Shown: in pieces, positions 5,958 to 38,241 of the stretch
How the letters are laid out: every line of letters starts with the position of its first letter
Numbering within the stretch: position 1 is the stretch's first letter
Assembly: GCF_001412655.1 (NCBI RefSeq)
Contig: NZ_CP012996.1
Span: 4,898,001 to 4,962,000 of the forward strand
Source: Pedobacter sp. PACM 27299
GTDB lineage: Bacteria > Bacteroidota > Bacteroidia > Sphingobacteriales > Sphingobacteriaceae
Direction of reading: 5' to 3'
Length of the DNA stretch: 64,000 nucleotides
Notes under the pieces: generated by a model
What the model was told of the DNA's origin: nothing
Database searches by the model: none
Seen by the model: only the letters and a program-made list of their open reading frames with translations
Program-made: the position numbers and the translations under genes

Positions 5958-8552
5958 ATGAACTTCAATAATTTCACTATAAAAGCACAGGAAGCGATTC
6001 AACAGGCTTCTGAAATAGCTCAAGGCAACCAGCAACAAGCTATTGAGACAGCGCATATACTTAAAGGGCTGCTCACTGTTGATGAAAATGTGGTTTCTTA
6101 TATTTTAAAGAAATTAAATGTAAATCTAAATGTGGTGAATCAACATTTAGATAGCCAGATTGCAAAGTTCCCTAAAGTGAGCGGAAGTAGTCCGTATTTA
6201 ACTTCAGGCAGTAACTCCGCAATTCAAAAGGCGCAATCTTATTTGAAAGAGTTCAAAGATGAATTCGTTTCAGTAGAGCACCTTTTACTGGGTTTGCTGT
6301 CTGTAAACGACAACACTTCTAAGCTACTAAAGGATCAAGGGGTGACTGAGAAAGACCTTAAAAAAGCCATTGTGGCTTTGAGAGGGGACAATCATGTCAC
6401 TGATCAAAATGCTGAAGCAACATTTAATGCTTTAAATAAATATGCAAGAAACCTGAATGAATATGCAGAATCAGGAAAGCTTGACCCTGTAATTGGTCGT
6501 GATGAAGAGATCCGAAGAGTGATCCAGATTCTTTCCAGACGTACCAAGAACAATCCGATTCTGATCGGTGAACCTGGTGTTGGTAAAACTGCCATCGCCG
6601 AAGGGATTGCCCACAGGATTATTCAAGGAGATGTTCCTACCAATCTAAAGACAAAAACAGTATTCTCTTTAGATATGGGCTCCCTGATTGCAGGTGCAAA
6701 GTACAAAGGAGAGTTTGAGGAACGGCTTAAAGCAGTGGTTAAGGAGGTGACTCAAAGCGATGGAGACATCATCCTTTTCATTGATGAGATCCACACTTTG
6801 GTGGGTGCCGGCGGTGGAGAAGGCGCAATGGATGCGGCCAATATCCTAAAACCTGCATTGGCCAGAGGTGAACTTCGCGCAATCGGAGCCACTACCCTCG
6901 ATGAGTATCAAAAATATCTGGAAAAAGATAAGGCCCTGGAACGCCGTTTCCAAAAGGTCATGGTGAATGAGCCGGATACTCAGGATGCGATTTCTATTCT
7001 GCGTGGACTGAAAGAAAAATATGAAACTCACCACAAGGTGAGGATAATGGATGAGGCGATTATTGCCGCAGTAGAGATGTCGCAGCGCTATATTGCTGAC
7101 CGTTTCTTGCCGGATAAAGCCATCGACTTAATGGACGAGGCCGCTTCTAAACTACGTTTGGAAATGGACAGTGTTCCGGAAGAAGTAGATGAACTGAACC
7201 GCAAGATCATGCAGTTGGAAATTGAGCGTGAGGCCATCAAAAGAGAGAATGACGACAAGAAAGTACAGTCTCTCGGCGAGGAAATCGCCAATTTATCTGC
7301 GGAACGAGATCAGCTGAAAGCTAAATGGCAAGGTGAAAAAGACCTTGTAGATGCGATTAACGCAGAAAGCGAACAAATTGAGCATTATAAACTGGAAGCA
7401 GACCAAGCGGAACGTGCCGGAGATTATGGTAAAGTAGCGGAAATCCGTTATGGAAAAATTAAAGAGTCGCAGGACAAAGTTGAACAACTGAAAGCGAAAC
7501 TGGAAGGTCAGCAGTCTGAAAGCAGAATGCTGAAAGAAGAAGTGACCGCTGATGATATCGCTGGAGTTGTAGGTAGATGGACCGGTATTCCGGTGACAAA
7601 ACTGATCTCCAGTGAAAGGGAGAAATTGCTGCACCTAGAAGATGAATTGCACAAACGTGTGGCCGGACAGGATGAAGCAATCGAAGCCATTTCTGATGCG
7701 ATTCGCAGGTCAAGAGCTGGATTACAGGACAAACGCAAGCCAATTGGCTCGTTCATCTTCCTGGGTACTACCGGTGTGGGTAAAACCGAGCTGGCCAAAG
7801 CATTGGCAGAGTTCTTATTTAACGATGAGAATGCCATGACCAGGATTGACATGAGTGAGTATCAGGAGCGTCATGCGGTATCCAGACTGATCGGAGCGCC
7901 TCCAGGATATGTAGGTTACGATGAAGGCGGACAATTAACGGAAGCCGTTCGTAGGAAACCATATTCAGTGGTACTGCTGGATGAGATTGAAAAAGCGCAT
8001 CCGGATGTGTTCAACATCTTATTGCAGGTATTGGATGATGGTCGTCTAACAGACAATAAAGGCCGCATGGTGAACTTTAAAAACACCATCATCATCATGA
8101 CCTCCAATATTGGTGCACACATGATTCAGGATAATTTCAAAGACCTGAACGAAGGAAACCGAGAAGAGGTGATTGCAAAGACGAAGAACGAACTGTTCGA
8201 AATCTTGAAACAAACCATCAGACCGGAGTTCTTAAACAGGATTGATGAGCTGATCATGTTTACACCATTGAACCGCAGCGAGATCAGAAACATTGTGAAC
8301 CTACAGTTCAACCATGTGAAAGAGACGCTTGCTGAGATGGGCATCCAGATTGAAGCGACTACAGAAGCTTTAGACTGGTTAGCAGAATTAGGTTATGATC
8401 CTCAATTTGGAGCGAGACCGTTAAAACGCGTCATCCAGAAGAGAATTTTAAATGAATTATCTAAAGAGATTCTTGCTGGAAAAATAGATAAAGACAGTAA
8501 GATAAAATTAGATACATTCGACAACAAATTCGTATTCTTAAACAACAACTAA
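5958..8552 (+). CDS. clpB: ATP-dependent disaggregase ClpB
   Basis: This 864-residue hexameric AAA+ chaperone pulls aggregated proteins apart together with DnaK. It has a Clp-N domain (1-145), a first AAA+ module with Walker A GEPGVGKT at 204-211 and Walker B ILFIDEIH near 272-279, a long charged coiled-coil middle domain (about 400-530), and a second module with GTTGVGKT near 603-610. A C-terminal small domain contains the FGARPLKR sensor. The frame is open 43 codons further upstream, but the ATG at 5958 gives the standard start [14 protein letters not shown] and the usual length. A terminator follows. Confidence 0.97.
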
Positions 8553-27338: not shown

Positions 27339-27974
27339 TTAGTGGTTATGACCATCCGCTTCAACAGGATGCAGCTCAAATTTCAAGTCCAGTTCGTTCG
27401 CTCCGGAAAACTTAAGCGCAAAACCGGGTTCGTTCCAGTCTGCAGCAGTAATTCCAGCCTTTACACCTGAATTCAAATGGCGCAGTACATAACGAAATGT
27501 AAATCCTGCCGATGCCTCATCTACGGTTAGATATCCAGTTACCCCAACATTTATTTTCTTATTGTCTTTGTCGCGATCTGCATAAGCATAAGTTAAAACT
27601 CCTGCTGGAGCTCCCAAAATAAAGGCCTGATGCAGCTCCTGCTGGTCTAAAAAGGCTTGCTGCAATTCCTTGCCGGCAGCATCAAATGACCGTAAACTCA
27701 ATTTATAGGTTTTTCCTTCCTGTAAATGGGCATGCGTCCCTGTCGGAGGCAATCCTTTACCATCAAATGTGATCACCAAAGGCTTTGCAGCAGTTATGGT
27801 ATTGTAATGAAAATGATCTCCATGTGCTTCCCGCTCTACTTCTAAAAAAGTAAGTTCTGATTTTCCGGTCTCCTCTTCCGGTGATTCAGGTTGAGCATCT
27901 TTTTTACAGGCGTTAAAAGTTAACGCAATCAGCGCGACTAAAATGGCTAGGGAATACTGACGTAATTTGTTCAT
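27339..27974 (-). CDS. Histidine-containing lipoprotein, probable metal-regulon member
   Basis: This 211-residue protein has a lipoprotein signal with C23 (lipobox FNAC) and an acidic linker. The mature part contains HGDHFHYN (H51, H54, H56) and ends HPVEADGHNH, both suitable for binding a transition metal. I recognise no named domain. It is divergent from the MerC-family gene, and the shared spacer has two copies of the TTGCAA-N5-TTGCAA palindrome, one overlapping this gene's own candidate promoter. A periplasm-facing or surface zinc-binding role is inference from motifs and context. Confidence 0.75.
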   Translation of the reverse strand: MNKLRQYSLAILVALIALTFNACKKDAQPESPEEETGKSELTFLEVEREAHGDHFHYNTITAAKPLVITFDGKGLPPTGTHAHLQEGKTYKLSLRSFDAAGKELQQAFLDQQELHQAFILGAPAGVLTYAYADRDKDNKKINVGVTGYLTVDEASAGFTFRYVLRHLNSGVKAGITAADWNEPGFALKFSGANELDLKFELHPVEADGHNH

Positions 27975-28039
27975 GGTTGTTTTTGTTAAGTATTAAAATT
28001 TGTAAGCTATTGATGTTCCTGGCCAGGTTTCTCATCTTA

Positions 28040-28061
28040 TTGCAATCATGTTGCAAATATA
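28040..28061 (-). promoter_or_regulatory. Operator A with overlapping leftward promoter
   Basis: The 17-base palindrome TTGCAATCATGTTGCAA spans 28040-28056. Reading leftward, TATATTTG (28061-28054) matches the TAnnTTTG -7 consensus and overlaps it by three bases. A repressor bound here would block the start of the lipoprotein gene at 27974. The leader would be about 70 bases long. Confidence 0.6.
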
Positions 28062-28077
28062 TCTCAATAAATTACAA

Positions 28078-28103
28078 ATGCAACTATATTGCTTTTATAT
28101 TTG
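28078..28103 (+). promoter_or_regulatory. Operator B and promoter of the MerC-family gene
   Basis: ATGCAACTATATTGCTT at 28078-28094 is a second copy of the palindrome. The -7 element TATATTTG follows at 28096-28103, one base later, and the ATG is at 28123. The operator lies just upstream of the -7 box, a classic repression position. Confidence 0.6.
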
Positions 28104-28122
28104 TAACCTTAATATTTATACC

Positions 28123-28524
28123 ATGATCAAAGCCCCTAACAAAAAAACATTATTGAACTCTGCCCGCTTAGACCAGTTTGGCATCACCGCCTCTGTCGCC
28201 TGCGCCATTCATTGTGCCGCCCTCCCTTTTCTCATCACTTTATTGCCGCTCTGGGGTTTGAGTTTCCTTGCCCATCCATGGGTCGAGTTCAGTATGATTG
28301 GCTTATCGCTTTTGATTGGCACCTGGTCTCTGGCACATTCCTATCCTAAGCACAAAAGAATCATTCCTATTCTGGTATTAATTATTGGATTTATGCTGAT
28401 CGGAACCGGACATTACATTTTCCATTTTTTAGAAGCGCTATTGATTCCTTTAGGGGGGTTCAGTATCGCACTCGCACACTTTCTCAATTGGAAATACACG
28501 CGAAACTGTACACATCAATCCTAA
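28123..28524 (+). CDS. MerC-family membrane protein
   Basis: This 133-residue protein has four hydrophobic segments. The first carries the paired cysteines C27 and C31 in CAIHCAALPF, the feature of MerC-type inner-membrane metal transporters, and another Cys is near the C-terminus (NCTHQS). I place the start at 28123 because the -7 element at 28096-28103 lies inside the longer possible frame. MerC proteins are known from mercury uptake; in this context, without other mer genes and beside a Zur-like regulon, zinc handling is more plausible. That is inference. Confidence 0.8.
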   Translation: MIKAPNKKTLLNSARLDQFGITASVACAIHCAALPFLITLLPLWGLSFLAHPWVEFSMIGLSLLIGTWSLAHSYPKHKRIIPILVLIIGFMLIGTGHYIFHFLEALLIPLGGFSIALAHFLNWKYTRNCTHQS

Positions 28525-28561
28525 CCTGCACGCAGTAGCAAAGACTTTACAACCAAAGCAC

Positions 28562-28590
28562 TTGCAATCTTATGGCATTTACTACTTTTG
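28562..28590 (+). promoter_or_regulatory. Operator C and promoter of the ABC transporter-regulator operon
   Basis: TTGCAATCTTATGGCAT at 28562-28578 fits the palindrome with one weak half-site. TACTTTTG at 28583-28590 matches TAnnTTTG, and the first ATG of the operon is at 28604. Spacing from operator to -7 box is nearly the same as at operator B. Confidence 0.6.
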
Positions 28591-28603
28591 TAACTACACA
28601 AAA

Positions 28604-28744
28604 ATGAATAGAAAACTAATATTCGGTGTATTTTTGCTCTTTGTGAGTATGATCAATCCTGGCTGCAATCACCCGCATCCAGATGCAAAACAGCTCTACT
28701 TAAAGTATTTAAAAAGTCGCGTAATAAATACCAAACATTTATGA
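28604..28744 (+). CDS. 46-residue small lipoprotein heading the ABC operon
   Basis: The start MNRKLIFGVFLLFVSMINPGC gives a signal peptide with a possible lipidated C21; the mature part is only 26 residues, begins CNHPHPDAKQ and is Lys-rich at the end. The stop overlaps the ATG of the ATPase gene in the ATGA arrangement, so translation is coupled. The candidate promoter lies 14 bases upstream of this ATG, which excludes a longer start. It may be a metal-binding accessory lipoprotein of the transporter; no family is recognised. Confidence 0.6.
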   Translation: MNRKLIFGVFLLFVSMINPGCNHPHPDAKQLYLKYLKSRVINTKHL

Positions 28745-29370
28745 TCTCTTTAAAATCTGTAGCTCATCAATATACCCCTCAGCAAGACATTCGTTTTGAG
28801 GATTGGCAAATTGACGCCGGATCCCAATGGCTGCTTCTTGGAGCATCAGGAAGTGGCAAATCAACCTTACTTCACATCCTGACAGGAATTTTAAAACCTG
28901 CACAAGGTAATGTAACCATCAAAGGAACCTCCATCTATGACCTATCCGCCAAAGCACTGGATCAATTTAGAGGCCGGAACATCGGGATCATTTTTCAACG
29001 TCCACACTTGATTAAAAGCCTGAGTATATCCGAAAACTTAGTGATAGCGCAAAGTTTTGCAAATTTACCTACAGATCTGAAAAGAGTAAATGAGGTATTG
29101 GATGCTTTAGGCATTGCCGGTAAGAAGAATGCTTATCCAGATCAATTGAGTCAGGGACAACTGCAGCGAGTATCTATTGCGAGGGCAGTCATCAATAAAC
29201 CCGCCTTACTGATTGCAGATGAGCCCACTTCCAGTCTTGACGATAAAAACGCCCAGATTGTATTGGAACTATTGATGCAGCAATCAGGTGCAAATCAGGC
29301 CACACTAATTGTGGCTACGCACGACAAAAGAGTAAAAGACGCGTTTAAACATACTTACGAACTATCATGA
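28741..29370 (+). CDS. ABC transporter ATPase (LolD/MacB-like branch)
   Basis: This 209-residue ATPase has Walker A GASGSGKS (34-41), the Q-loop in FQRPHLIK, signature LSQGQLQRVSIARA from about residue 137, and Walker B LLIADEPTSSLD near 157-168. It pairs with the downstream FtsX-like permease, overlapping it by 4 bases. Transporters of this type often perform mechanical work rather than simple solute import. The related Vibrio ZrgABCDE zinc system combines an ATPase and permease of this kind with a DUF3299 protein, and all three components are present here. Confidence 0.88.
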   Translation: MISLKSVAHQYTPQQDIRFEDWQIDAGSQWLLLGASGSGKSTLLHILTGILKPAQGNVTIKGTSIYDLSAKALDQFRGRNIGIIFQRPHLIKSLSISENLVIAQSFANLPTDLKRVNEVLDALGIAGKKNAYPDQLSQGQLQRVSIARAVINKPALLIADEPTSSLDDKNAQIVLELLMQQSGANQATLIVATHDKRVKDAFKHTYELS

Positions 29371-30641
29371 GCCCTATAAAGATCAGCTGGAAGAGCTTAT
29401 GGTCTAAGCCGCTTTCTTCCGCATTAAACATGATGCTCATTGCCTTTGGCACTGGAATATTGACCATATTATTATTAGCATCCCATCAGATTTCACAAAA
29501 GCTGGACAACAACTCGAAAGATATTGACCTGGTAGTGGGGGCGAAAGGCAGTCCGCTGCAATTGATCCTGAGCAGCATTTATTACATTGATTTCCCTACC
29601 GGAAACATCCCGCTTAAAGCAGCAAAGGAATTGTCGCGCAGTCCTTTTGTGAAAAGAGCGGTACCACTTGCTTTGGGCGACAATTACAATGGAACCCGAA
29701 TTGTGGGAACAGACAGTAATTTCGTAGCCTTATACCAATTGAAATTGAAAGATGGAAAGTTCTGGAACAATGATTTTGAAGCCACTGTAGGCGCTGGAGT
29801 CGCAAAAGAGCAGCAGCTAAAAGTTGGCGATACATTTTTCGGCGCGCATGGATTAAGCAGTACGAGTGATGTCCATAAAAGTCACCCGTATACGGTATCA
29901 GGAATTATGGAGTCTCAGGGAAATGTAACAGACAACCTCATTTTAACCAATATTGCCAGTGTATGGAAGATGCACGATGATCACGAAGATGACCATCAAA
30001 AAAAGGCAGCAGACAACCATGATGATCATCAGCATGATGTAACAAGCAAACAGGAAGACCACCAGCATGCTACTGCAAAGCAGGTAGATAATGATGAAGA
30101 TAAAGAATTGACTTCTTTACTGATCCAATACCGTTCCCCTATGTCTGTAGCGATTTTCCCTAGAATGGTAAATGAAACTACAAATATGCAGGCGGCCTCT
30201 CCTGCACAGGAAAGTACCAGACTATTCTCTTTAATTGGGGTTGGTGTAGAAACACTGCAGTGGTTCGCCGTTTTAATCATGCTCATCGCAGCAATCAGCG
30301 TATTCGTAAACCTTTACAATTCGTTAAAAGAACGTCAATACGACCTGGCGATCATGCGTACACTAGGTGCCTCCAGAGGAAAGCTCTTCCTGATTGTCAT
30401 CATAGAAGGAGTCATTCTTACCTTTGTGGGGACGATTATTGGGGTAGCACTAGGCCACTTTGCTTTACAATTTATTGGTAATTATCAGGAAAGTAATCAG
30501 GCCCGCCTTACAGGAATCATCTTCCTGAACGAGGAAATATATTTATTTGTTGCTGGCTTAGCGATTGGTATATTTGCGGCTATCATCCCTGCAATACAGG
30601 CTTACAAGTCCAATATTTCTAAAATATTGTCTAAAAATTAA
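29367..30641 (+). CDS. FtsX-like ABC permease with His/Asp-rich extracytoplasmic loop
   Basis: This 424-residue permease has one N-terminal membrane segment (about 18-40), a large extracytoplasmic domain, and three C-terminal segments of an FtsX domain (about 287-415). The extracytoplasmic part contains an insert, residues 201-245, starting MHDDHEDDH and holding eight His and many Asp/Glu. This fits a flexible metal-binding loop. It overlaps the ATPase gene by 4 bases. Together with the DUF3299-like protein and Zur-like regulator downstream it suggests a zinc-acquisition transporter; direction and substrate are inferred. Confidence 0.87.
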   Translation: MSPIKISWKSLWSKPLSSALNMMLIAFGTGILTILLLASHQISQKLDNNSKDIDLVVGAKGSPLQLILSSIYYIDFPTGNIPLKAAKELSRSPFVKRAVPLALGDNYNGTRIVGTDSNFVALYQLKLKDGKFWNNDFEATVGAGVAKEQQLKVGDTFFGAHGLSSTSDVHKSHPYTVSGIMESQGNVTDNLILTNIASVWKMHDDHEDDHQKKAADNHDDHQHDVTSKQEDHQHATAKQVDNDEDKELTSLLIQYRSPMSVAIFPRMVNETTNMQAASPAQESTRLFSLIGVGVETLQWFAVLIMLIAAISVFVNLYNSLKERQYDLAIMRTLGASRGKLFLIVIIEGVILTFVGTIIGVALGHFALQFIGNYQESNQARLTGIIFLNEEIYLFVAGLAIGIFAAIIPAIQAYKSNISKILSKN

Positions 30642-30657
30642 CACTAATACAAAAGAA

Positions 30658-31095
30658 ATGAAACGATTCCTGCTCGCTATTTTACTCTTTACCGGATTTG
30701 CGGTAAAAGCCCAGCACAATCCTGATGATCAGATCCTGTCCGACAACTGGGATGTGGTAGGTGGTGTAGACTTTAAAATTGTTAAAGACTCAGAAATGTA
30801 TGCGGTTTATTCGCCTGAAATTAAAAAACATGCCAATAAAACTTTTGAATTGGAAGGATATATCGTTCCAATTAAAGATGGTATGAAACAAACGAAGTTC
30901 ATGCTTTCTACCTTGCCAATTAATCAATGTTTTTATTGCGGAAAAAATGGCGTTCCAATCATGGTGCTGGTAGAAATGACAGAACCAATTAAATTCACCT
31001 ACAAAACAATTGTCGTAAAAGGCACGTTGAAATTAAATACAGGAAATGCAATGGACAACCCACCAATTTCCCTGATCAACGCAAAAACGATATAA
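30658..31095 (+). CDS. DUF3299-like exported protein
   Basis: This 145-residue protein has a signal peptide ending AVKAQ (residue 19). The core ELEGYIVPIKDGMKQTKFML followed by INQCFYCGKNGVP (C91 and C94 in a C-x2-C) is the pattern of the DUF3299 family. In Vibrio cholerae, to my knowledge, a DUF3299 protein belongs to the Zur-regulated ZrgABCDE zinc-uptake system. Here it follows the ABC permease by 16 bases and precedes the Fur-family gene by 2. I place the start at 30658, where the signal peptide begins. A metal-relay role through the CxxC pair is a guess. Confidence 0.8.
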   Translation: MKRFLLAILLFTGFAVKAQHNPDDQILSDNWDVVGGVDFKIVKDSEMYAVYSPEIKKHANKTFELEGYIVPIKDGMKQTKFMLSTLPINQCFYCGKNGVPIMVLVEMTEPIKFTYKTIVVKGTLKLNTGNAMDNPPISLINAKTI

Positions 31096-31097
31096 GT

Positions 31098-31532
31098 ATG
31101 AAACTAGATCCTGTAAATATTTTAAAAGAACACGACCTTAAACATACCAAACAAAGGGTACGTGTGCTGGAAGAAATTGCGCTGGATACGGTCGCAATCT
31201 CCCAGCCTGAGCTGGAAAAAAAACTAGGTAAAGAGATCGATCGCGTTACGCTGTATAGAATCCTCAATACCTACGAAGAAAAAGGAATCGTACACCGGAT
31301 TATGGACATGAATGGCACTGCAAACTATGCATTATGCTCAGCTGCCTGCTCTGAAGACCACCATCATGATGAACATGTACATTTCAACTGTACCACTTGC
31401 GGTAAGATCTATTGCCTGGAAGTAACGGTGCCTAAAATTAAAATGCCAAATGGCTTTACTGCTAAAACAGTGAACACGACTGCTTATGGCACCTGCGAAA
31501 AATGTCACGCACTCATCCCCTTGTCCGCATAA
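31098..31532 (+). CDS. zur: Fur-family metalloregulator, probably Zur
   Basis: This 144-residue repressor has an N-terminal winged helix with recognition helix in DRVTLYRILNTYEEKGIV (48-65). Its C-terminal half carries HHHDEHVHF (88-96) and two structural-zinc pairs, C98/C101 and C133/C136. These are the conserved metal sites of Fur, Zur and PerR proteins. The choice of Zur rests on the zinc-type transporter operon it terminates. It is the last gene of the operon under operator C, so autoregulation is likely. Fur or another metal specificity remains possible. Confidence 0.8.
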   Translation: MKLDPVNILKEHDLKHTKQRVRVLEEIALDTVAISQPELEKKLGKEIDRVTLYRILNTYEEKGIVHRIMDMNGTANYALCSAACSEDHHHDEHVHFNCTTCGKIYCLEVTVPKIKMPNGFTAKTVNTTAYGTCEKCHALIPLSA

Positions 31533-31552
31533 AACAAGAGGCTTATCCAGCA

Positions 31553-31593
31553 TAAAAAAACCGGAAACTTCTATTCTAAGCTTCCGGTTTTTT
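31553..31593. terminator. Bidirectional terminator between the Fur-family gene and the dipeptidase gene
   Basis: AAAACCGGAA pairs with TTCCGGTTTT, with a possible CTT/AAG extension inside, and A and T runs outside. It separates two convergent operons. Confidence 0.9.
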
Positions 31594-31633
31594 ATTTTTA
31601 TCTGTATTTGAATAGAAGTACAGCTTCAAGAAG

Positions 31634-32704
31634 CTAGGCCCAGGCTTTGTACAAAAAATTCAGCCAGTTCTTGTGAAAAATCAGTTCCAGGTCTGCTACA
31701 GTGTAGCCTTTATCCGCAAACATGGCGACCATCTTTTGCAAGTCGGAAATCGTATCCAGGTCAAAAGGCGATTGCTCTGTCCCAAAAGCACCATCCAAAT
31801 CTGATCCGATACCAATATGTCTGGCATTACCTGCCAACTGGCAGATATGATCTGCATGCTCCACTACTTTTTCTAATCCACAGTTCATTCCCTTTGGTGT
31901 AGATACCCCTCTTTGCCAGTCAGGAACAATCATCCAGGCATCTAAAGCGCCGCCGATAACAGCTCCTCTATTGATCAATGCCAGAACCTGCTCATCGCTA
32001 TATTGTCTGTTGTGGTTTACAAATGTCCGGCAATTGTTATGACTTGCCCAAACTGGGCCAGAGAAATAATCCAGTGCTTGCCAGAACGCATCATCACATA
32101 GATGTGTCGCATCCAGAATGAAGTTTAACCGCTCCATTTCCTTTAATAAATCCAAGCCCATTTGCCCCATCTTTCCGGTAGCATCGGTTCCATTTGCATA
32201 TCTGCCAGGGCCATAGTGCGCAGGACCGATAGCTCTTAATCCATATTGATGGGCACGCTCCAGATAAGAGATGTCGACAATAGAATCTGCCCCCTCTAAG
32301 CTTAAAATATAACCGATCGCTTTCTGATCATTTGAAGTCCCATCGTTCCAGAGCTCATAATGGCTTTTCAATTGCTGCACATTCGTGATCTGAAACAGTT
32401 CACCCGCTTCTTCCATCGCTTTATACCAGGCCAGTTGTCCTTGAGTTTGCGCCCAGGCCTGTTCTGGCGAATTCCAGCCAGGAATTAAACTATCAGGTTT
32501 CACATATCTGGCAATCTGTGTCGCCACAACAATCCCAATATTTCCTTTCCTAAGTTCCGGAAATGAGACGGTAGACTTTTCACGGTCGGGTTTATCCTTC
32601 ATCCCTTTTTCCAAAGTTCTGATCGTAGGGACTGGCAACCTCAAATCCCTGTTCCATTCCATGGCATTCATGCTAAGGTCCAGGTGGGCATCGATTATAA
32701 ACAT
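31634..32704 (-). CDS. M19 (renal dipeptidase-type) dipeptidase
   Basis: This 356-residue protein lacks a signal peptide. The binuclear zinc site of membrane-dipeptidase family M19 is recognisable: H7 and D9 in DAHLDLS, the bridging Glu in SLEGADS (near 135), His in DATHLCDDA and ASHNNCRTF, and the terminal Asp in GSDLDGAFG. It cleaves dipeptides, in some members D-amino acid dipeptides or beta-lactam-like bonds. It is the last gene of the SusC-SusD-RidA operon, 12 bases after RidA, so it may process what the outer-membrane pair imports. Confidence 0.88.
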   Translation of the reverse strand: MFIIDAHLDLSMNAMEWNRDLRLPVPTIRTLEKGMKDKPDREKSTVSFPELRKGNIGIVVATQIARYVKPDSLIPGWNSPEQAWAQTQGQLAWYKAMEEAGELFQITNVQQLKSHYELWNDGTSNDQKAIGYILSLEGADSIVDISYLERAHQYGLRAIGPAHYGPGRYANGTDATGKMGQMGLDLLKEMERLNFILDATHLCDDAFWQALDYFSGPVWASHNNCRTFVNHNRQYSDEQVLALINRGAVIGGALDAWMIVPDWQRGVSTPKGMNCGLEKVVEHADHICQLAGNARHIGIGSDLDGAFGTEQSPFDLDTISDLQKMVAMFADKGYTVADLELIFHKNWLNFLYKAWA

Positions 32705-32716
32705 AGGTTCTAATGG

Positions 32717-33184
32717 TTAAAATAATTCAAAAACTGCTTCTACTTCTACCGGGATATTATCCGGCAAAGAGCCCATTCCTACTGCACTTCTTACGCCAAT
32801 TCCGTTCTCCTGGCCCCAAACAGCCGCAAATAATTCACTGCAGCCATTGATGATGTAAGGATGTTTTTCAAAATCTGCAGAACAATTGACCATTCCCAAA
32901 ACTTTGATTACTCTTTTTACTACATCAAGACTGCCAAAATTGGTTACAATGGTAGACAACATGGTCAAACCAACCTGGCGAGCAGCAAGCTTCCCTGCTT
33001 CAGGATCCATATCCTCACCAATCCTTCCTATAATCAGCGACTGATCTGGCTGTACTGGCCCGTGACCGGATAAATATAAATATTTACCATCTACCAAAAA
33101 CGGTTTATAAATTCCCAACGGTTTTGGAGCGGGTGGTAATACGAGTTCTAATTTTAAAAATGCTTCTTGGGCTGATAAATTCAT
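32717..33184 (-). CDS. RidA/YjgF-family protein
   Basis: This 155-residue protein has the RidA fold, with the catalytic Arg conserved as R132 in GVRSAVGMGSLPDNIPVEVEA. RidA proteins hydrolyse reactive enamine/imine intermediates from PLP enzymes; the N-terminal half here is longer and divergent from canonical RidA, so it belongs to one of the less studied subgroups. It lies between SusD (33 bases) and the M19 dipeptidase gene (12 bases). The combination suggests handling of amino-acid-derived material taken up by the SusCD pair. Confidence 0.82.
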   Translation of the reverse strand: MNLSAQEAFLKLELVLPPAPKPLGIYKPFLVDGKYLYLSGHGPVQPDQSLIIGRIGEDMDPEAGKLAARQVGLTMLSTIVTNFGSLDVVKRVIKVLGMVNCSADFEKHPYIINGCSELFAAVWGQENGIGVRSAVGMGSLPDNIPVEVEAVFELF

Positions 33185-33217
33185 GGTAATTATGATATAA
33201 TTTTTGTTAAAATTTGC

Positions 33218-34750
33218 TTATTTATCCCACCACACTCGGGTGGTCAAAGTGTTTGCTCCCTGTCGGGCAATCGCCTCCTGTACATTTTTTGTATTACTTG
33301 CACCTTCAGCATTTGGGTAGATCAACCTTCTTGGAATCGTTCCAGCAGTTACATTTCCAGGATAATTTACAGGAACCAACACCGGATAACCTGTTCTTCT
33401 CCAATTGGCAAATACTTCATATTCATCCAGGTATAAAGCCACCCAGATCTGGGTATTGATCTGCTCCAGCTGTTTCTCAAATGCCCCCCCTGTTTGATAG
33501 GAATGCGTCAGCCAATATTGGTTTTTCTTATCTGCAGCGATACTATAGTTCGAACCATAAATGCTGGCCTGATCAAATGATCCATTTACACCTTTTTCGT
33601 AAAACTCAGCAGCAGTACCCAATGTATTCCAGCCACGAAGCGCTGCTTCTGCCAGGTATAAATTAGTCTCGGCATTCCCTAATACCATCAATGGTGCATC
33701 TAATCTAAACACTGTACTTTGGTTAGGTTCCGAATACGTTCCCAGCTCATTTGCAGAGGGAGCTACACCTACCCCATTCGGAAAACCTTTTTGAATAGCA
33801 GGATTCAAATCTTGCGCTGTCCCGACCCATACACCAGCATAAACGCTCAATCTAGGATCATTGTTGCTTTTAAGGTAGTTGATAAATGTGGCGCTTAACT
33901 TCCCACCTTCAATATTATTCTTTCCAAATGAATTCGGAGAAAAGTCTCTGCTTCTGGATTCTCTTGCTACAGGATTACGGTTCAAATCTTGTGGACCATC
34001 AGTATATTTCATTGTAGCATTGTCTTCTTTATTTAAAATTACGCCACCGGAGATGGCCTTTTTTACCCAAATTTCTGAAAGTGCTGCATCCTTTTTGCTG
34101 ACTCTTAATCCAAGTCTAAGCATCATGGAATAAGCAAACTTTTTCCATTTCAATACATCACCATTATAAATAAAATCGTTGCCACCATAAGAGGGCTTTG
34201 CAGCATCCAGTCCTTTAGCGGATTCGTCAAGTTCTTTCAATAAGTCCTTGTAAATTGATTCCTGAGTATCATATTTTGGGTTGAAATTTAAGTCAGTCAG
34301 CCCTTTTCCAGCTTCGCTATAAGGAACATCACCATATAAATCAGTGATTCTATGGTAAATATAGACCCTCCAGATACGTGCGATATTCAATTTATTAACA
34401 TCGGCAGGGTTCGCTTTTACTGCTCTGATCACTTCCTCAATTTCATTGACTGCAACGGGATAACCATCTGTAAAATAGGGCGCCTGGTAAAAATCATTGG
34501 CAAAATACTTATCTCCAACTCCGGAAACCTCTTTATAAGTGGCATAATGCTGGATAAAACCACCTAAATTTAATACGGCGGTCAGGTAATAACTGTTACT
34601 CATCGCACTCAACTGGGACTTTGAAAACAAAAAAGCAGGTGTTGGTGTGGATAAAGAATTTGGGTTATCATTCAAAGTACCAAAATCTTTCTTGCATCCT
34701 GCGATCGTTAAGATCAACAGGGTAGCTATATAGTATATATATTTTTTCAT
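33218..34750 (-). CDS. SusD/RagB-type (SusD-like 2) outer-membrane lipoprotein
   Basis: This 510-residue lipoprotein has lipobox TIAGC with C19. KKDFGTLNDNPNS after the Cys is the typical start of the SusD-like 2 branch, followed by TPR-like helices and a C-terminal WRRTGYPVL. It forms the lid over its SusC partner, whose gene ends 11 bases upstream. This branch of SusD often pairs with transporters for peptides or other non-glycan ligands. The downstream RidA and dipeptidase genes, and the absence of glycosidases, agree with a non-glycan ligand. Confidence 0.92.
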   Translation of the reverse strand: MKKYIYYIATLLILTIAGCKKDFGTLNDNPNSLSTPTPAFLFSKSQLSAMSNSYYLTAVLNLGGFIQHYATYKEVSGVGDKYFANDFYQAPYFTDGYPVAVNEIEEVIRAVKANPADVNKLNIARIWRVYIYHRITDLYGDVPYSEAGKGLTDLNFNPKYDTQESIYKDLLKELDESAKGLDAAKPSYGGNDFIYNGDVLKWKKFAYSMMLRLGLRVSKKDAALSEIWVKKAISGGVILNKEDNATMKYTDGPQDLNRNPVARESRSRDFSPNSFGKNNIEGGKLSATFINYLKSNNDPRLSVYAGVWVGTAQDLNPAIQKGFPNGVGVAPSANELGTYSEPNQSTVFRLDAPLMVLGNAETNLYLAEAALRGWNTLGTAAEFYEKGVNGSFDQASIYGSNYSIAADKKNQYWLTHSYQTGGAFEKQLEQINTQIWVALYLDEYEVFANWRRTGYPVLVPVNYPGNVTAGTIPRRLIYPNAEGASNTKNVQEAIARQGANTLTTRVWWDK

Positions 34751-34761
34751 TGCGCTGATGT

Positions 34762-37700
34762 TTAAAATTTAACACTTAAATTCAATCCGTAGCTTCTCGT
34801 GCGTGGCACACCGAACTGCTCAATACCCTGTGCATTTCCTGCACTAAACACAGATTCAGGATCTACATTTGGTGTTTTCTTGTAAAGGATAAAAAGATTA
34901 CGACCTACCAATGAGAGGGTAGCAGAACTCAATTTGGATAACATTTTCACTTTACTTACTGGCAGCTGATAGCTCAGGACCACCTGACGCAGTTTAATAA
35001 AGCTGGCATCATAAACAAATAATGAAGAGATGTTCCTGAAACCATCGCCATAATATTTCTCCAGTAAGGAAGGATCGATTACCATATTTACAGGATTTCC
35101 GGCAACATCCACCCCGTTAATTGGCACACCTGTATCGCGGCCATCAAGGGTCATTTTTGTTAACCCCATACGGGTTCCGTATAAGTCAGTACCAGAGTAT
35201 AAACTTCCTCCGAATTTGCCGTCAATCAAGACGTTCAAACTAAACTTCTTGTACCTGAAATCATTAGAAAAACCTACTGCCCAAGGATGCACTCCTTGTC
35301 CTAATTGCTCAAGAGGCCCTGGAACTGGAGTAGCTACCCCACCAGAAACATTATATACCGTTTTTCCATTTGCATCTTTCGTTTCTCTTCTACCCATGAT
35401 TACACTGTAAGGGCTACCCACCTGACTATAGATGTAAGCGTAACCATTTACTGCAGAAGCCATCACAATAGAGTTCAGGTTTTCAGCCAACTGTAAAACC
35501 TCATTTTTGTTATAAGCAGTATTTACACTGGTATTCCAGGAGAAATTTGCCTGATCAATTAGCTTTCCGCTGATCAATAACTCGACCCCTTTATTGCTGA
35601 TTTCACCCACATTTAATAAAGCTGTTCTATAACCCGATCCTGTAGAAACTGTAGTTTCTACAATATCTTTAGTGGTACTTCTATTATACCAGGCAAAGTC
35701 AATTCCTAAACGATTCTGAAATAAAGAGGCTTCAAAACCCGCTTCAAAAGTAGTAGAGGTTAAAGGACTTAAATTAGGATTGGGAATTCGAGTACTGGTA
35801 ACCTGCTGTAATTGTTGTCCGAGGTGCCCGTTTTGAATCATCGAATAAGAAGGATTCAACGCATAAGGATCCGGAGTTGCTCCTCCTACCTGTGCCCATG
35901 AAGAGCGCAATTTCGCATATTGAATCCAGGAAGGCATTTTCAAGATCGACGAAAGGATGATACTCGTTCCAATCGAAGGATAGAAAATCGTGTTATTCTT
36001 AGGGGCCAAGGTAGAAAACCAATCCTGACGTCCAGTTAAAGTCAGGAAAACCAAGTTCTTATAGTCCAGATCTGCAGAGCCAAATAATGAAGAAGTTTTC
36101 GTTTTTCCATAAGGATAAGTGGTGGTTACTGTTCCCAGATTAGAGATCGAATAGAAATTAGGGGTGATAAAATCTTTCCCCTGAATGAGCACTTCATCCC
36201 TTGCAGAAGAGCGATTATTGACACCAAACAAAGCGTTTAAGGAGAAGTCTTTCAGCAAATTCTGCTTATTATAATTGATCGTTACTTCACTATTGATCGT
36301 AGTTAAATTAGACCTTTCTTCTTTTGCACCTCCTAAGGGCGTATATAGAGAGCCTGTTGGCACAATGCCCAGGTACTTAAAGTCATTATAATCCTGTCCG
36401 ATCCTTGCATTGAAGAACAATTCCGGTAAAAGGTTCAACTTCAGGTTAACCATGGATAAAAAGCGGTTTCTGGTATCGTTCTTCTGGAACTTGTTGACCA
36501 CAAAATAAGGATTACTTGCAATTGGAACTGGATTCCATGCGATTTCATTGCCATTAGCATCGTATCCAGGAGCCAGATTACGAATATCAACGGTATTCCC
36601 AATCATATAAGTTCCCCAGTTGGGATTACCATAAGCATCATTTACCACCGTTCTGTTTTTCGCGTTCTCCAGGTTATATTGCATCACCGCATCAATCCTC
36701 AGCCATTTAGAAAGCACCAGCTCTCCTGCAAAATTGAAAGTTTTTCTATTGAAATTAGTATTGGGAACGATACTTCTATTGTTCATATCCGACAATGAAA
36801 AACGACCGTTGGCGGATTCACTTCCACCAGAAAGTGCCAATGTATTGGTTGTAGTGGTTCCGGTTTGGTAAAAGTTTTGAATGTTACCTTTCTGTGGGCT
36901 ATAAGGCCTTTTTACACCATCAAACTGGATCACATCAGAACCGTCAATTTTGGCACCCCAGGAAGAACGTCCCGCAGCAATTGCATCTGCCTGTGTCACT
37001 GGTTTTGTTCCGTTTTTACCTGAACCATATTCATATTGCCAGTCCGGAATAACAACCGGTGATTCCATCGTAAAACCAGAATTGAAATCAATTCCTAAAC
37101 CTTTCTGTGCACCACCTCTTTTAGTTTTGATCAGAATTACCCCATTGGAGGCCAGAGAACCGTATAAAGCAGCAGCAGTACCACCTTTTAAAATAGTAAT
37201 ACTTTGGATATCGTCTGGATTAATCCCTGCAATTCCATCTCCACGATCTATGTTTAGGCCATTGGCGATCCCGTCCGATGTATAACCTTCCGTTAAGGGC
37301 AATCCCAACAAAGTATTGTCGATTGGCATATCGTTGACTACATACAAAGGCTGGTTATTCCCGTTTAAAGAACCATTTCCCCTAATGATCACCCTACTCG
37401 ATCCGCTTGGCCCCGTAGCAGTACTGGTTGCATTTACTCCTGCAACTTTACCCACAAGCGCATTGGCCAAATTCGTTTCTCTTGCTTGTGTAAACTCCGT
37501 ACCCTTTACTTCCGTTAAAGCGTAAGGAAGGGCTTTACGGTCTTTCTTAATTCCCATTGCAGTAACGACCACCTGATTCAAGGTATTTTCTTCCGCAGGA
37601 GAAAGTTCTACCTCCAGCTGTTTTTCAAACTGAACAGTTACTTCTTTTCTTTTATATCCGATGTAAGTAAAGACCAATACCTGTGGTCCTTCTGGGATGT

Positions 37701-37932
37701 TCAGCACAAAATTTCCTTTTTCATCTGTTTTCGTTCCTTTAGTTGGATCTGATTTTAAAAACACAGATACACCAGGAATAGAAAGCTGATCATCCGAAGC
37801 GGTTACGCGACCTTTAATTTCTCGCACATTCACCCCTACATGAGCGTAGGGAGGTAACGTAGCAAATACTGCTGTTGAAAGTACCGGTATCGGCCCGAGC
37901 AACAGAAATAACAATGGTAGTTTTCGAATCAT
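34762..37932 (-). CDS. SusC/RagA-type TonB-linked outer-membrane transporter
   Basis: This 1056-residue protein has a signal peptide, a carboxypeptidase-regulatory-like domain (about 38-115, IKGRVTASDDQLSIPGVSV), the SusC-type plug (ALVGKVAGVNATS, RVIIRGNGSL, KGGTAAALYGS), a 22-strand barrel and a C-terminal LNLSVKF. It imports a ligand using TonB energy together with the SusD lid encoded next. The promoter region shows a TATATTTG -7 element, a palindromic TTGCA operator and a (TTGG)12 tract between promoter and start codon. No sigma/anti-sigma pair is adjacent, so a metalloregulator may control it instead. Confidence 0.94.
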   Translation of the reverse strand: MIRKLPLLFLLLGPIPVLSTAVFATLPPYAHVGVNVREIKGRVTASDDQLSIPGVSVFLKSDPTKGTKTDEKGNFVLNIPEGPQVLVFTYIGYKRKEVTVQFEKQLEVELSPAEENTLNQVVVTAMGIKKDRKALPYALTEVKGTEFTQARETNLANALVGKVAGVNATSTATGPSGSSRVIIRGNGSLNGNNQPLYVVNDMPIDNTLLGLPLTEGYTSDGIANGLNIDRGDGIAGINPDDIQSITILKGGTAAALYGSLASNGVILIKTKRGGAQKGLGIDFNSGFTMESPVVIPDWQYEYGSGKNGTKPVTQADAIAAGRSSWGAKIDGSDVIQFDGVKRPYSPQKGNIQNFYQTGTTTTNTLALSGGSESANGRFSLSDMNNRSIVPNTNFNRKTFNFAGELVLSKWLRIDAVMQYNLENAKNRTVVNDAYGNPNWGTYMIGNTVDIRNLAPGYDANGNEIAWNPVPIASNPYFVVNKFQKNDTRNRFLSMVNLKLNLLPELFFNARIGQDYNDFKYLGIVPTGSLYTPLGGAKEERSNLTTINSEVTINYNKQNLLKDFSLNALFGVNNRSSARDEVLIQGKDFITPNFYSISNLGTVTTTYPYGKTKTSSLFGSADLDYKNLVFLTLTGRQDWFSTLAPKNNTIFYPSIGTSIILSSILKMPSWIQYAKLRSSWAQVGGATPDPYALNPSYSMIQNGHLGQQLQQVTSTRIPNPNLSPLTSTTFEAGFEASLFQNRLGIDFAWYNRSTTKDIVETTVSTGSGYRTALLNVGEISNKGVELLISGKLIDQANFSWNTSVNTAYNKNEVLQLAENLNSIVMASAVNGYAYIYSQVGSPYSVIMGRRETKDANGKTVYNVSGGVATPVPGPLEQLGQGVHPWAVGFSNDFRYKKFSLNVLIDGKFGGSLYSGTDLYGTRMGLTKMTLDGRDTGVPINGVDVAGNPVNMVIDPSLLEKYYGDGFRNISSLFVYDASFIKLRQVVLSYQLPVSKVKMLSKLSSATLSLVGRNLFILYKKTPNVDPESVFSAGNAQGIEQFGVPRTRSYGLNLSVKF

Positions 37933-37944
37933 GGTTTTTAGGTT

Positions 37945-37993
37945 TGGTTGGTTGGTTGGTTGGTTGGTTGGTTGGTTGGTTGGTTGGTTGGTT
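37945..37993 (-). repeat. (TTGG)12 tetranucleotide tract in the SusC leader
   Basis: Twelve perfect TGGT units plus one base run from 37945 to 37993; on the SusC mRNA the tract reads AACC repeats. It lies between the -7 element (37998-38005) and the ATG at 37932. Such tracts slip during replication and commonly vary in length between cells. Confidence 0.95.
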
Positions 37994-37997
37994 AAGT

Positions 37998-38052
37998 CAA
38001 ATATAGAATTTTTTTAGATAATTTGCATATTATTTGCAATTATTTTTTGCAA
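37998..38052 (-). promoter_or_regulatory. SusC promoter with operator D
   Basis: Reading leftward, TATATTTG at 38005-37998 matches the -7 consensus and is identical to the boxes of the lipoprotein and MerC genes. Upstream, TTGCATATTATTTGCAA at 38023-38039 is a copy of the TTGCAA-N5-TTGCAA palindrome with one changed base. A third half-site TTGCAA follows at 38047-38052. The region between here and slyD holds no gene. Confidence 0.6.
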
Positions 38053-38218
38053 CTAAAATAATAAGATAAACAGGTTGCTCCAAAAAACTGGTCAATAAAA
38101 GGAAATAAAAACCACAAGAAAAATACATTCAAATAAATTAAATGCATATAAAACCAGAACAGGTTGGTCTGGAAATTAGTAAAAGAACAGTAAGTAAAGG
38201 AGATTAAAAACTGTCTAA

Positions 38219-38235
38219 TTGCAAAAAATATGCAA
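38219..38235. promoter_or_regulatory. Operator-like palindrome E
   Basis: TTGCAAAAAATATGCAA has the same half-sites and spacing as operators A-D. It lies about 220 bases upstream of the SusC promoter, next to the slyD terminator. A distant auxiliary site is possible; in this AT-rich spacer a chance match is also possible. Confidence 0.35.
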
Positions 38236-38241
38236 CAAAAA

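Follow-up and report, generated by a model that had tools for sequence, protein, structure and literature searches.

A candidate Zur regulon of three transcription units in Pedobacter sp. PACM 27299, and a separate palindrome at a neighbouring SusC operon

We analysed a window of 64,000 nucleotides (C1:4898001-4962000) from the genome of Pedobacter sp. PACM 27299 (G000; 6.15 Mb, single contig), in which 17-bp palindromes recur around a gene for a Fur-family regulator. Sequence comparison gave good support for a Zur regulon of Bacteroidota type comprising three units: a His-rich lipoprotein gene, the MerC-family gene merC, and an operon for an ATP-binding cassette (ABC) transporter, a DUF3299-like protein and the regulator itself (the ABC/DUF3299-like/zur operon). 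The palindrome very probably lets a zinc-sensing repressor switch the neighbouring zinc-handling genes. With considerable confidence, we consider the protein encoded at 31098-31532 to be Zur, repressing these three units in response to zinc, and the nearby SusC operon to belong to another regulon. We infer that this protein binds the boxes and that repression is the sign; gene content and regulator residues point to zinc as the signal.

The mechanism that we propose is as follows. When zinc is sufficient, a Zn-loaded Zur dimer would bind 7-1-7 boxes with the consensus ATGCAAYN-N-NRTTGCAT. The boxes overlap or adjoin the predicted -7 regions of three promoters, and bound Zur would repress the His-rich lipoprotein gene, merC, and the operon encoding a small lipoprotein, an ABC ATPase, a MacB-like permease, a DUF3299-like protein and Zur. 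Zinc shortage would release Zur from the boxes. Elsewhere in the genome, the same boxes would control zigA and perhaps a TonB receptor gene. A different palindrome would place the SusC operon under joint control with a hexosaminidase/sugar-kinase cluster, whose DeoR-family protein is perhaps the regulator.

An earlier sequence-only reading of this DNA had described five palindromes of one layout and a Zur regulon of four units, the SusC operon included. All five 17-mers were found at the coordinates that it gave. The single layout did not hold: the sites fall into two motifs, and those at 28040, 28078 and 28562 scored 20.2, 18.6 and 16.8 on a Zur matrix, against 4.4 and 3.9 for those at 38023 and 38219. 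The first three fit WTGCAAY-N3-RTTGCAW, a 7-1-7 palindrome, and the conserved sites of relatives read ATGCAAY-N3-RTTGCAT. Paired bases in the outer halves numbered 6/6 at 28040, 5/6 at 28078, 4/6 at 28562 and 5/6 at both 38023 and 38219. The lipoprotein gene, merC and the ABC/DUF3299-like/zur operon were retained as units, and the SusC operon, with its different conserved motif, was not.

The matrix was trained on 39 distinct, hand-picked 17-mers from other genomes, located upstream of merC, the ABC operon, zigA and the ZIP operon in relatives. Sites identical to those of the window and several imperfect ones (e.g. in L056, L079 and L086) were omitted; because of the latter, the matrix is biased to good sites. 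Its training sites had leave-one-out scores of 12.5 to 25.6. Three window sites scored at least 14, compared with a mean of 0.32 in 60 first-order random windows. Further sites at 2521, 40937 and 38485 scored 8.4 to 10.8, under every training site, and were not counted. Several relatives likewise carry pairs of Zur-type boxes, with a spacing of 38-40 bp.

In Bacteroidota promoters, TAnnTTTG is the -7 element. Box 1 (28040) overlaps a minus-strand match at 28061-28054, box 2 (28078) is separated from matches by 1 nt on the plus strand and 16 nt on the minus strand, and box 3 (28562) by 4 nt from the downstream one. For the 38023 site the gap is 17 nt on the minus strand; at 38219 no TAnnTTTG occurs within 20 bases on either strand. 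The sequence-only reading was thus correct in placing four of the five sites within 20 bases of this element, which is found within 20 bases downstream, on either strand, of 2.9% of sampled window 17-mers. Among sites scoring at least 15 with an element in reach, the commonest gaps were 1 and 4 nt (27 and 26 cases), followed by 16 nt (21 cases), the gap that separates box 2 from the element of the divergent promoter. Binding over or beside -7 elements should block RNA polymerase, so repression would be expected.

Conservation of the box was examined at 50 loci that encode relatives of the regulator (L046-L095), with the consensus WTGCAA-N5-TTGCAW, at most one mismatch and at most 200 bp upstream. 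With the consensus only, and no matrix, a box was found upstream of merC in 28/30 loci (23 perfect), against 0.5/30 in dinucleotide shuffles. It was found upstream of the ABC/DUF3299-like/zur operon in 29/40 rows (21 perfect), against 0.4/40 in shuffles; three of the 40 rows (L061, L090 and L091) are unrelated ABC matches, not orthologues. For the lipoprotein gene itself, two of four loci had a box no more than 200 bp from the start (L046 and L047; not L065 and L080). At the start of the regulator gene itself, a box was present in only 2/50 loci (L055 and L061), both without the operon in front, and in Mucilaginibacter it preceded merC-zur in 4/6 loci (L088, L090, L091 and L092). Control gene starts in the same loci gave no box at FKBP (0/39), FtsX (0/38) or dipeptidase (0/7) genes. 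The 8/33 obtained for ABCF genes were mapping artefacts, three being the operon's own ATPase and five having starts off the contig. In 22/22 loci where zigA lies next to the regulator locus, it was preceded by a box with a score of 14 or more, these scores depending partly on the matrix training, which included zigA sites. Conservation upstream of orthologues, to which the sequence-only reading had looked for support, was therefore found for merC, the operon and zigA.

Enrichment gave a mixed answer: the motif recurs before zinc genes, and within the window TTGCAA-N5-TTGCAA with up to two mismatches was not enriched (8 found, 8.6 expected), so this count was dropped as evidence for a regulon. 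The refined motif in exact form had five copies in G000, compared with 0.63 expected from independent bases and 1.87 from a first-order Markov model (P about 0.04), with base statistics taken from 203,520 bases of the genome. The five copies lie beside zntA, beside a flavin adenine dinucleotide (FAD) oxidoreductase gene, in an intergenic region, beside zigA, and at box 1. For the exact box at G000:2897499, no convincing target gene was found, and that at G000:4312204 lies inside an open reading frame (ORF). Over 21 genomes, exact WTGCAA-N5-TTGCAW occurred 124 times, compared with 34 for the backwards pattern. Among the matches listed, 60 loci from 12 other genomes were examined (one listed G164 site was left out); they contained 68 exact sites. 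Those with Y at position 7 and R at position 11 were non-coding or near ORF starts in 30/35 cases, whereas 21/33 of those without this pair lay inside ORFs (Fisher P 4e-5).

The targets outside the window point to zinc. COG0523 genes lie behind Zur sites in many genomes (PMC2770081). The closest NCBIfam model of the COG0523 product encoded here is the zinc metallochaperone GTPase ZigA (544 bits, cut-off 600); in G000 the ORF is extended too far in the 5' direction, and the box falls in this extra part, ahead of the probable start. Exact boxes also precede ZntA-type ATPase genes and, in five relatives (L151, L159, L163, L167 and L175), methyltransferase/phosphatase/ZIP operons, in each of which the ZIP gene was confirmed. 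At G000:2654767, a box with one mismatch stands before a small gene followed by a TonB receptor gene. Among NCBIfam models, this receptor matches heme receptors best; ZnuD ranks third, far under its cut-off. The same box pair was observed between the lipoprotein gene and merC in the window, at a divergent zigA/merC promoter in L052, and between a TonB receptor-lipoprotein pair and DUF3299-like-zur in L065. As judged by these loci, the box-pair promoter is kept across relatives while the flanking genes are exchanged, which would tie the His-rich lipoprotein to the TonB receptor.

Some boxes stand beside other genes. The FAD oxidoreductase gene follows an exact box in G000 (L120, 3110-4018) and in L155, L162, L170 and L185; in L185 its divergent neighbour resembles another Fur-family gene. 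Zur-type boxes in three Pedobacter genomes (L141, L146, L165 and L166) were seen near genes that read as a precursor of a ribosomally synthesized and post-translationally modified peptide (a short gene, L141) and a peptidase-type ABC exporter (L165), both named by sequence reading. A zinc-regulated peptide is possible.

The sequence-only reading had placed the regulator inside one of the units, and a Zur-type Fur-family gene is indeed there. Its product has the Fur-family fold (PF01475, 40.5 bits, cut-off 23.1). R54, H66, C80, C98, C101, C133 and C136 were invariant in 21/21 aligned sequences, its own included. R54, H66 and C80 align with Arg65, His77 and Cys88 of Escherichia coli Zur, and C98/C101/C133/C136 with Cys103/106/143/146, its Cys4 structural zinc site (residue roles from PMC4219657). 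A His cluster lies in the region of His96 of E. coli Zur, and a counterpart of Glu111 was not assignable from the alignment. The canonical Fur of G000 (5146476) is without H66 and C80. Zur-type residues and zinc targets thus support the claim of Zur identity; a zinc response of the three units is still an inference, and the SusC operon is not supported as a fourth.

A second Zur-type paralogue is encoded at G000:1732209-1732610. It is 44% identical to the window regulator, keeps H66 and C80, and sits between a membrane-fusion-protein-like gene (sequence reading) and a ZntA-type gene. We compared the best 30 zntA loci, each from a different genome, out of 57 genomes in which matches occurred. 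The paralogue was adjacent in 19/30, of which 13 had a clear box and 6 a degenerate box ending CATTGCGC; the loci without it had a box in 0/11. Among the loci listed with a clear box, the gap from the zntA box to TAnnTTTG was 12 nt in ten and 11 nt in one. When the -33 regions of zntA and merC promoters were compared by eye, no clear difference telling activation from repression was found. Zur-activated zinc exporters are known (PMC6103462). Tentatively, and with the odds rather against it, one operator code and two Zur-type paralogues may run both zinc uptake and export in Pedobacter, with the position of the operator, not its sequence, setting the sign. Uptake genes would be repressed from boxes that precede the -7 element by 1-4 nt. 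The ZntA-type exporter gene, whose box precedes its -7 element by about 12 nt and was seen only with the paralogue adjacent, would respond in the opposite way.

The SusC operon has a motif of its own. Exact TTGCAWA-N3-TWTGCAA occurs three times in G000: at the two SusC sites and at 5339733, between two divergent hexosaminidase-like genes (GH20 by sequence reading) of a hexosaminidase/DeoR/PfkB cluster. The reverse complement of box B (38219) is identical to the 5339733 site. A one-mismatch copy at G000:5346124 precedes a PfkB kinase gene and a RidA paralogue, the latter 79% identical to the RidA of the SusC operon. The pattern was written after the G000 sites and those of close relatives had been seen; the genomes of L052, L053 and L054 were not used in making it. 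Their SusC promoters carry site pairs with separations of 188, 188 and 177 bp, compared with 196 bp in the window, with one mismatch in 1/6 sites, and in each genome two more copies flank the hexosaminidase/DeoR/PfkB cluster (1/6 with one mismatch and a Zur score of 13.1). Over 60 genomes, 25 exact matches were found, compared with 6 for the backwards control. In G000 the count with one mismatch was 8, against 7 for the control; only exact matches are therefore informative. The site was inside an ORF in 9/15 loci viewed (L242-L256, of which L243 and L255 come from the genomes of L054 and L047, respectively, and are not new cases), so the pattern alone is not specific. These results suggest that the SusC operon likely belongs to a separate regulon, perhaps for a sugar or amino acid and perhaps under the cluster's DeoR-family protein.

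This motif lies at window 38023-38235 and in loci L124 and L273-L278. The two sites at the SusC promoter, separated by 177-196 bp, could be compatible with DNA looping. In L251 a TTGCAWA-type site lies between RidA-PfkB and a GntP-like permease gene. A close relative (L047, about 7900-8060) lacks SusCD but retains the RidA-dipeptidase genes and what appears to be a stub of the SusC start. Between the -7 element and the SusC start codon, close to the latter, runs a long GGTT tandem repeat (37944-37993). The sequence TTGCAATGGTGTTGAAA (either strand) has six identical copies in G000 and is probably a dispersed repeat.

Several findings weigh against the three-unit Zur regulon. Genome-wide motif counts alone were only weakly enriched in G000, and the argument is therefore carried by position and upstream conservation. 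Several loci are close relatives, so the fractions given are not counts of independent events; L174 repeats L071 and is not a new case. Around regulator loci of other genera (L019-L045), a box was found within 1.5 kb in only 3/27, and the ZIP operon of G000 had no box scoring at least 13. None of the six Fur-family NCBIfam models listed reached its cut-off on the regulator: Fur gave 39.6 bits and Zur 35.4, both far under. The Zur model, PRK11639 (cut-off 167), is an equivalog model and was not taken as defining Zur at large. The best Protein Data Bank profile matches were Fur, and the second Zur-type paralogue could bind the boxes too.

Three other explanations were weighed. The regulator could be a Fur-family sensor of another metal (iron or manganese) or of peroxide that uses the same box, as the slightly higher scores of Fur models would allow; the ZigA-like, ZIP and ZrgBC-like targets, and the Zur sensor His and Cys residues that are present in it and absent from the canonical Fur, make this very improbable. 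Less remote, though still unlikely, is that the boxes are read mainly by the paralogue beside zntA, or by both proteins, with the window regulator not the main reader. Both proteins have DR-T-LYR-L in the recognition-helix region together with H66/C80, and the zntA next to the paralogue carries the same class of box. Across Pedobacter, however, boxes precede the operon of the window regulator; they stand directly before its gene in L055 and L061 and before merC-zur in the Mucilaginibacter loci above, and 11/30 zntA loci have neither adjacent paralogue nor box.

We also consider very improbable the view that all five sites are one Zur operator, with the SusC operon as a fourth unit for zinc or zincophore uptake. 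The five have the TGCA outer core and 17-base layout in common, the motifs are fairly close (site 7855 in L275, of the SusC set, scores 13.1 on the Zur matrix), and in Caulobacter the targets of Zur include TonB-dependent proteins (PMC4176598). Against this stand the low scores of the two SusC sites, the third exact G000 copy between the hexosaminidase-like genes, and the SusC promoters of three further species, which have paired TTGCAWA-type sites and no Zur score of 13 or more. The SusC operon was rejected as a Zur unit on these low scores and on its own motif, paired with the hexosaminidase cluster in three more species.

The window features and the zntA box are listed in Table 1. The DUF3299 match is weak (16.5 bits, cut-off 22); among 24 aligned DUF3299-like sequences, 21 matched DUF3299 at E<=0.1 (best 0.0056) and 5 matched DUF1980_C (best 8e-4). 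In L065 and L080, the homologue of the His-rich lipoprotein gene lies directly 3' of a TonB-receptor-like gene, which is itself divergent from the zur-containing operon.

Table 1. Predicted operators, promoter elements and genes (window coordinates unless prefixed G000)
Feature	Position	Strand	Remarks
Zur-type box 1, TTGCAATCATGTTGCAA	28040..28056	.	Between divergent lipoprotein and merC genes; Zur matrix 20.2
Zur-type box 2, ATGCAACTATATTGCTT	28078..28094	.	1 nt before merC -7 element; Zur matrix 18.6
Zur-type box 3, TTGCAATCTTATGGCAT	28562..28578	.	4 nt before ABC/zur operon -7 element; Zur matrix 16.8
SusC-operon box A, TTGCATATTATTTGCAA	38023..38039	.	TTGCAWA-N3-TWTGCAA set, not Zur-type; Zur matrix 4.4
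SusC-operon box B, TTGCAAAAAATATGCAA	38219..38235	.	TTGCAWA-N3-TWTGCAA set, not Zur-type; Zur matrix 3.9
Predicted -7 element of lipoprotein gene, TATATTTG	28054..28061	-	TAnnTTTG match
Predicted -7 element of merC, TATATTTG	28096..28103	+	TAnnTTTG match
Predicted -7 element of ABC/zur operon, TACTTTTG	28583..28590	+	TAnnTTTG match
Zur-type box at zntA	G000:1732105-1732121	.	Loci L119, L212
His-rich lipoprotein	27339..27974	-	No Pfam match, no NCBIfam match
MerC-family membrane protein (merC)	28123..28524	+	PF03203, 86.8 bits, cut-off 27.6
Small lipoprotein-like protein of 46 aa, encoded first in the operon	28604..28744	+	'Lipoprotein' by sequence reading; no Pfam match
ABC transporter ATPase	28741..29370	+	Pfam ABC_tran above cut-off
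MacB/LolC-like ABC permease with His-rich stretch	29367..30641	+	MacB_PCD, FtsX above cut-off
DUF3299-like protein	30655..31095	+	Under Pfam cut-off
Zur-type Fur-family regulator	31098..31532	+	PF01475; invariant residues in 21 aligned sequences
SusC, SusD, RidA-like and dipeptidase-like genes	31634..37932	-	SusC/SusD by Pfam; RidA/dipeptidase by sequence reading

With a defined box, the zinc response of this soil-bacterial family becomes predictable. A testable role in zinc supply follows for MerC-family genes, for the His-rich lipoprotein and for the DUF3299-like ABC operon. Once the SusC motif is split off, the regulon loses a false member, and a second regulon is predicted. Among open-licence papers, judged by titles and abstract starts of the top matches, we found no Zur box described for Bacteroidota; a Zur review (PMC6103462) gave 0 matches to 'Bacteroid', a Riemerella paper (PMC11960050) concerns ZntR, and PMC6613475 concerns a divergent Fur of Porphyromonas.

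The proposed system shares with Zur of other phyla (PMC6103462) a Fur-family protein with a Cys4 structural site and His/Cys sensor residues, a 7-1-7 palindrome at promoters, which is one published layout, and COG0523 and zinc-transport targets. For Actinobacteria, Bacilli and Proteobacteria, Zur sites are described as AT-rich palindromes (PMC3087516), whereas the core here is TGCAAY...RTTGCA. Also unlike other phyla, zur lies inside the transporter operon that it presumably represses, and merC is a core target. Operons with DUF3299 and ABC genes are Zur-regulated in Pseudomonas (PMC11481552) and Vibrio (PMC9817125). The window ABC operon appears to resemble zrgABCDE of Vibrio and PA4063-PA4066 of Pseudomonas aeruginosa, zinc-repressed operons for an ABC ATPase, a MacB-like permease and a DUF3299-type protein. 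We did not file it as a member: DUF2796 (ZrgA) was not found here (Pfam, both lipoproteins), the DUF3299 match is under cut-off, and zur is inside the operon. The Pseudomonas paper itself argues for pyochelin-cobalt export, not zinc import. For zntA, the likeness is to zitB of Streptomyces coelicolor (PMC5472717) and to Xanthomonas (PMC6103462), where a box also lies upstream of a zinc exporter gene. The known Zur-activated exporters are cation diffusion facilitators, whereas here a separate Zur-type paralogue stands beside a P-type ATPase gene.

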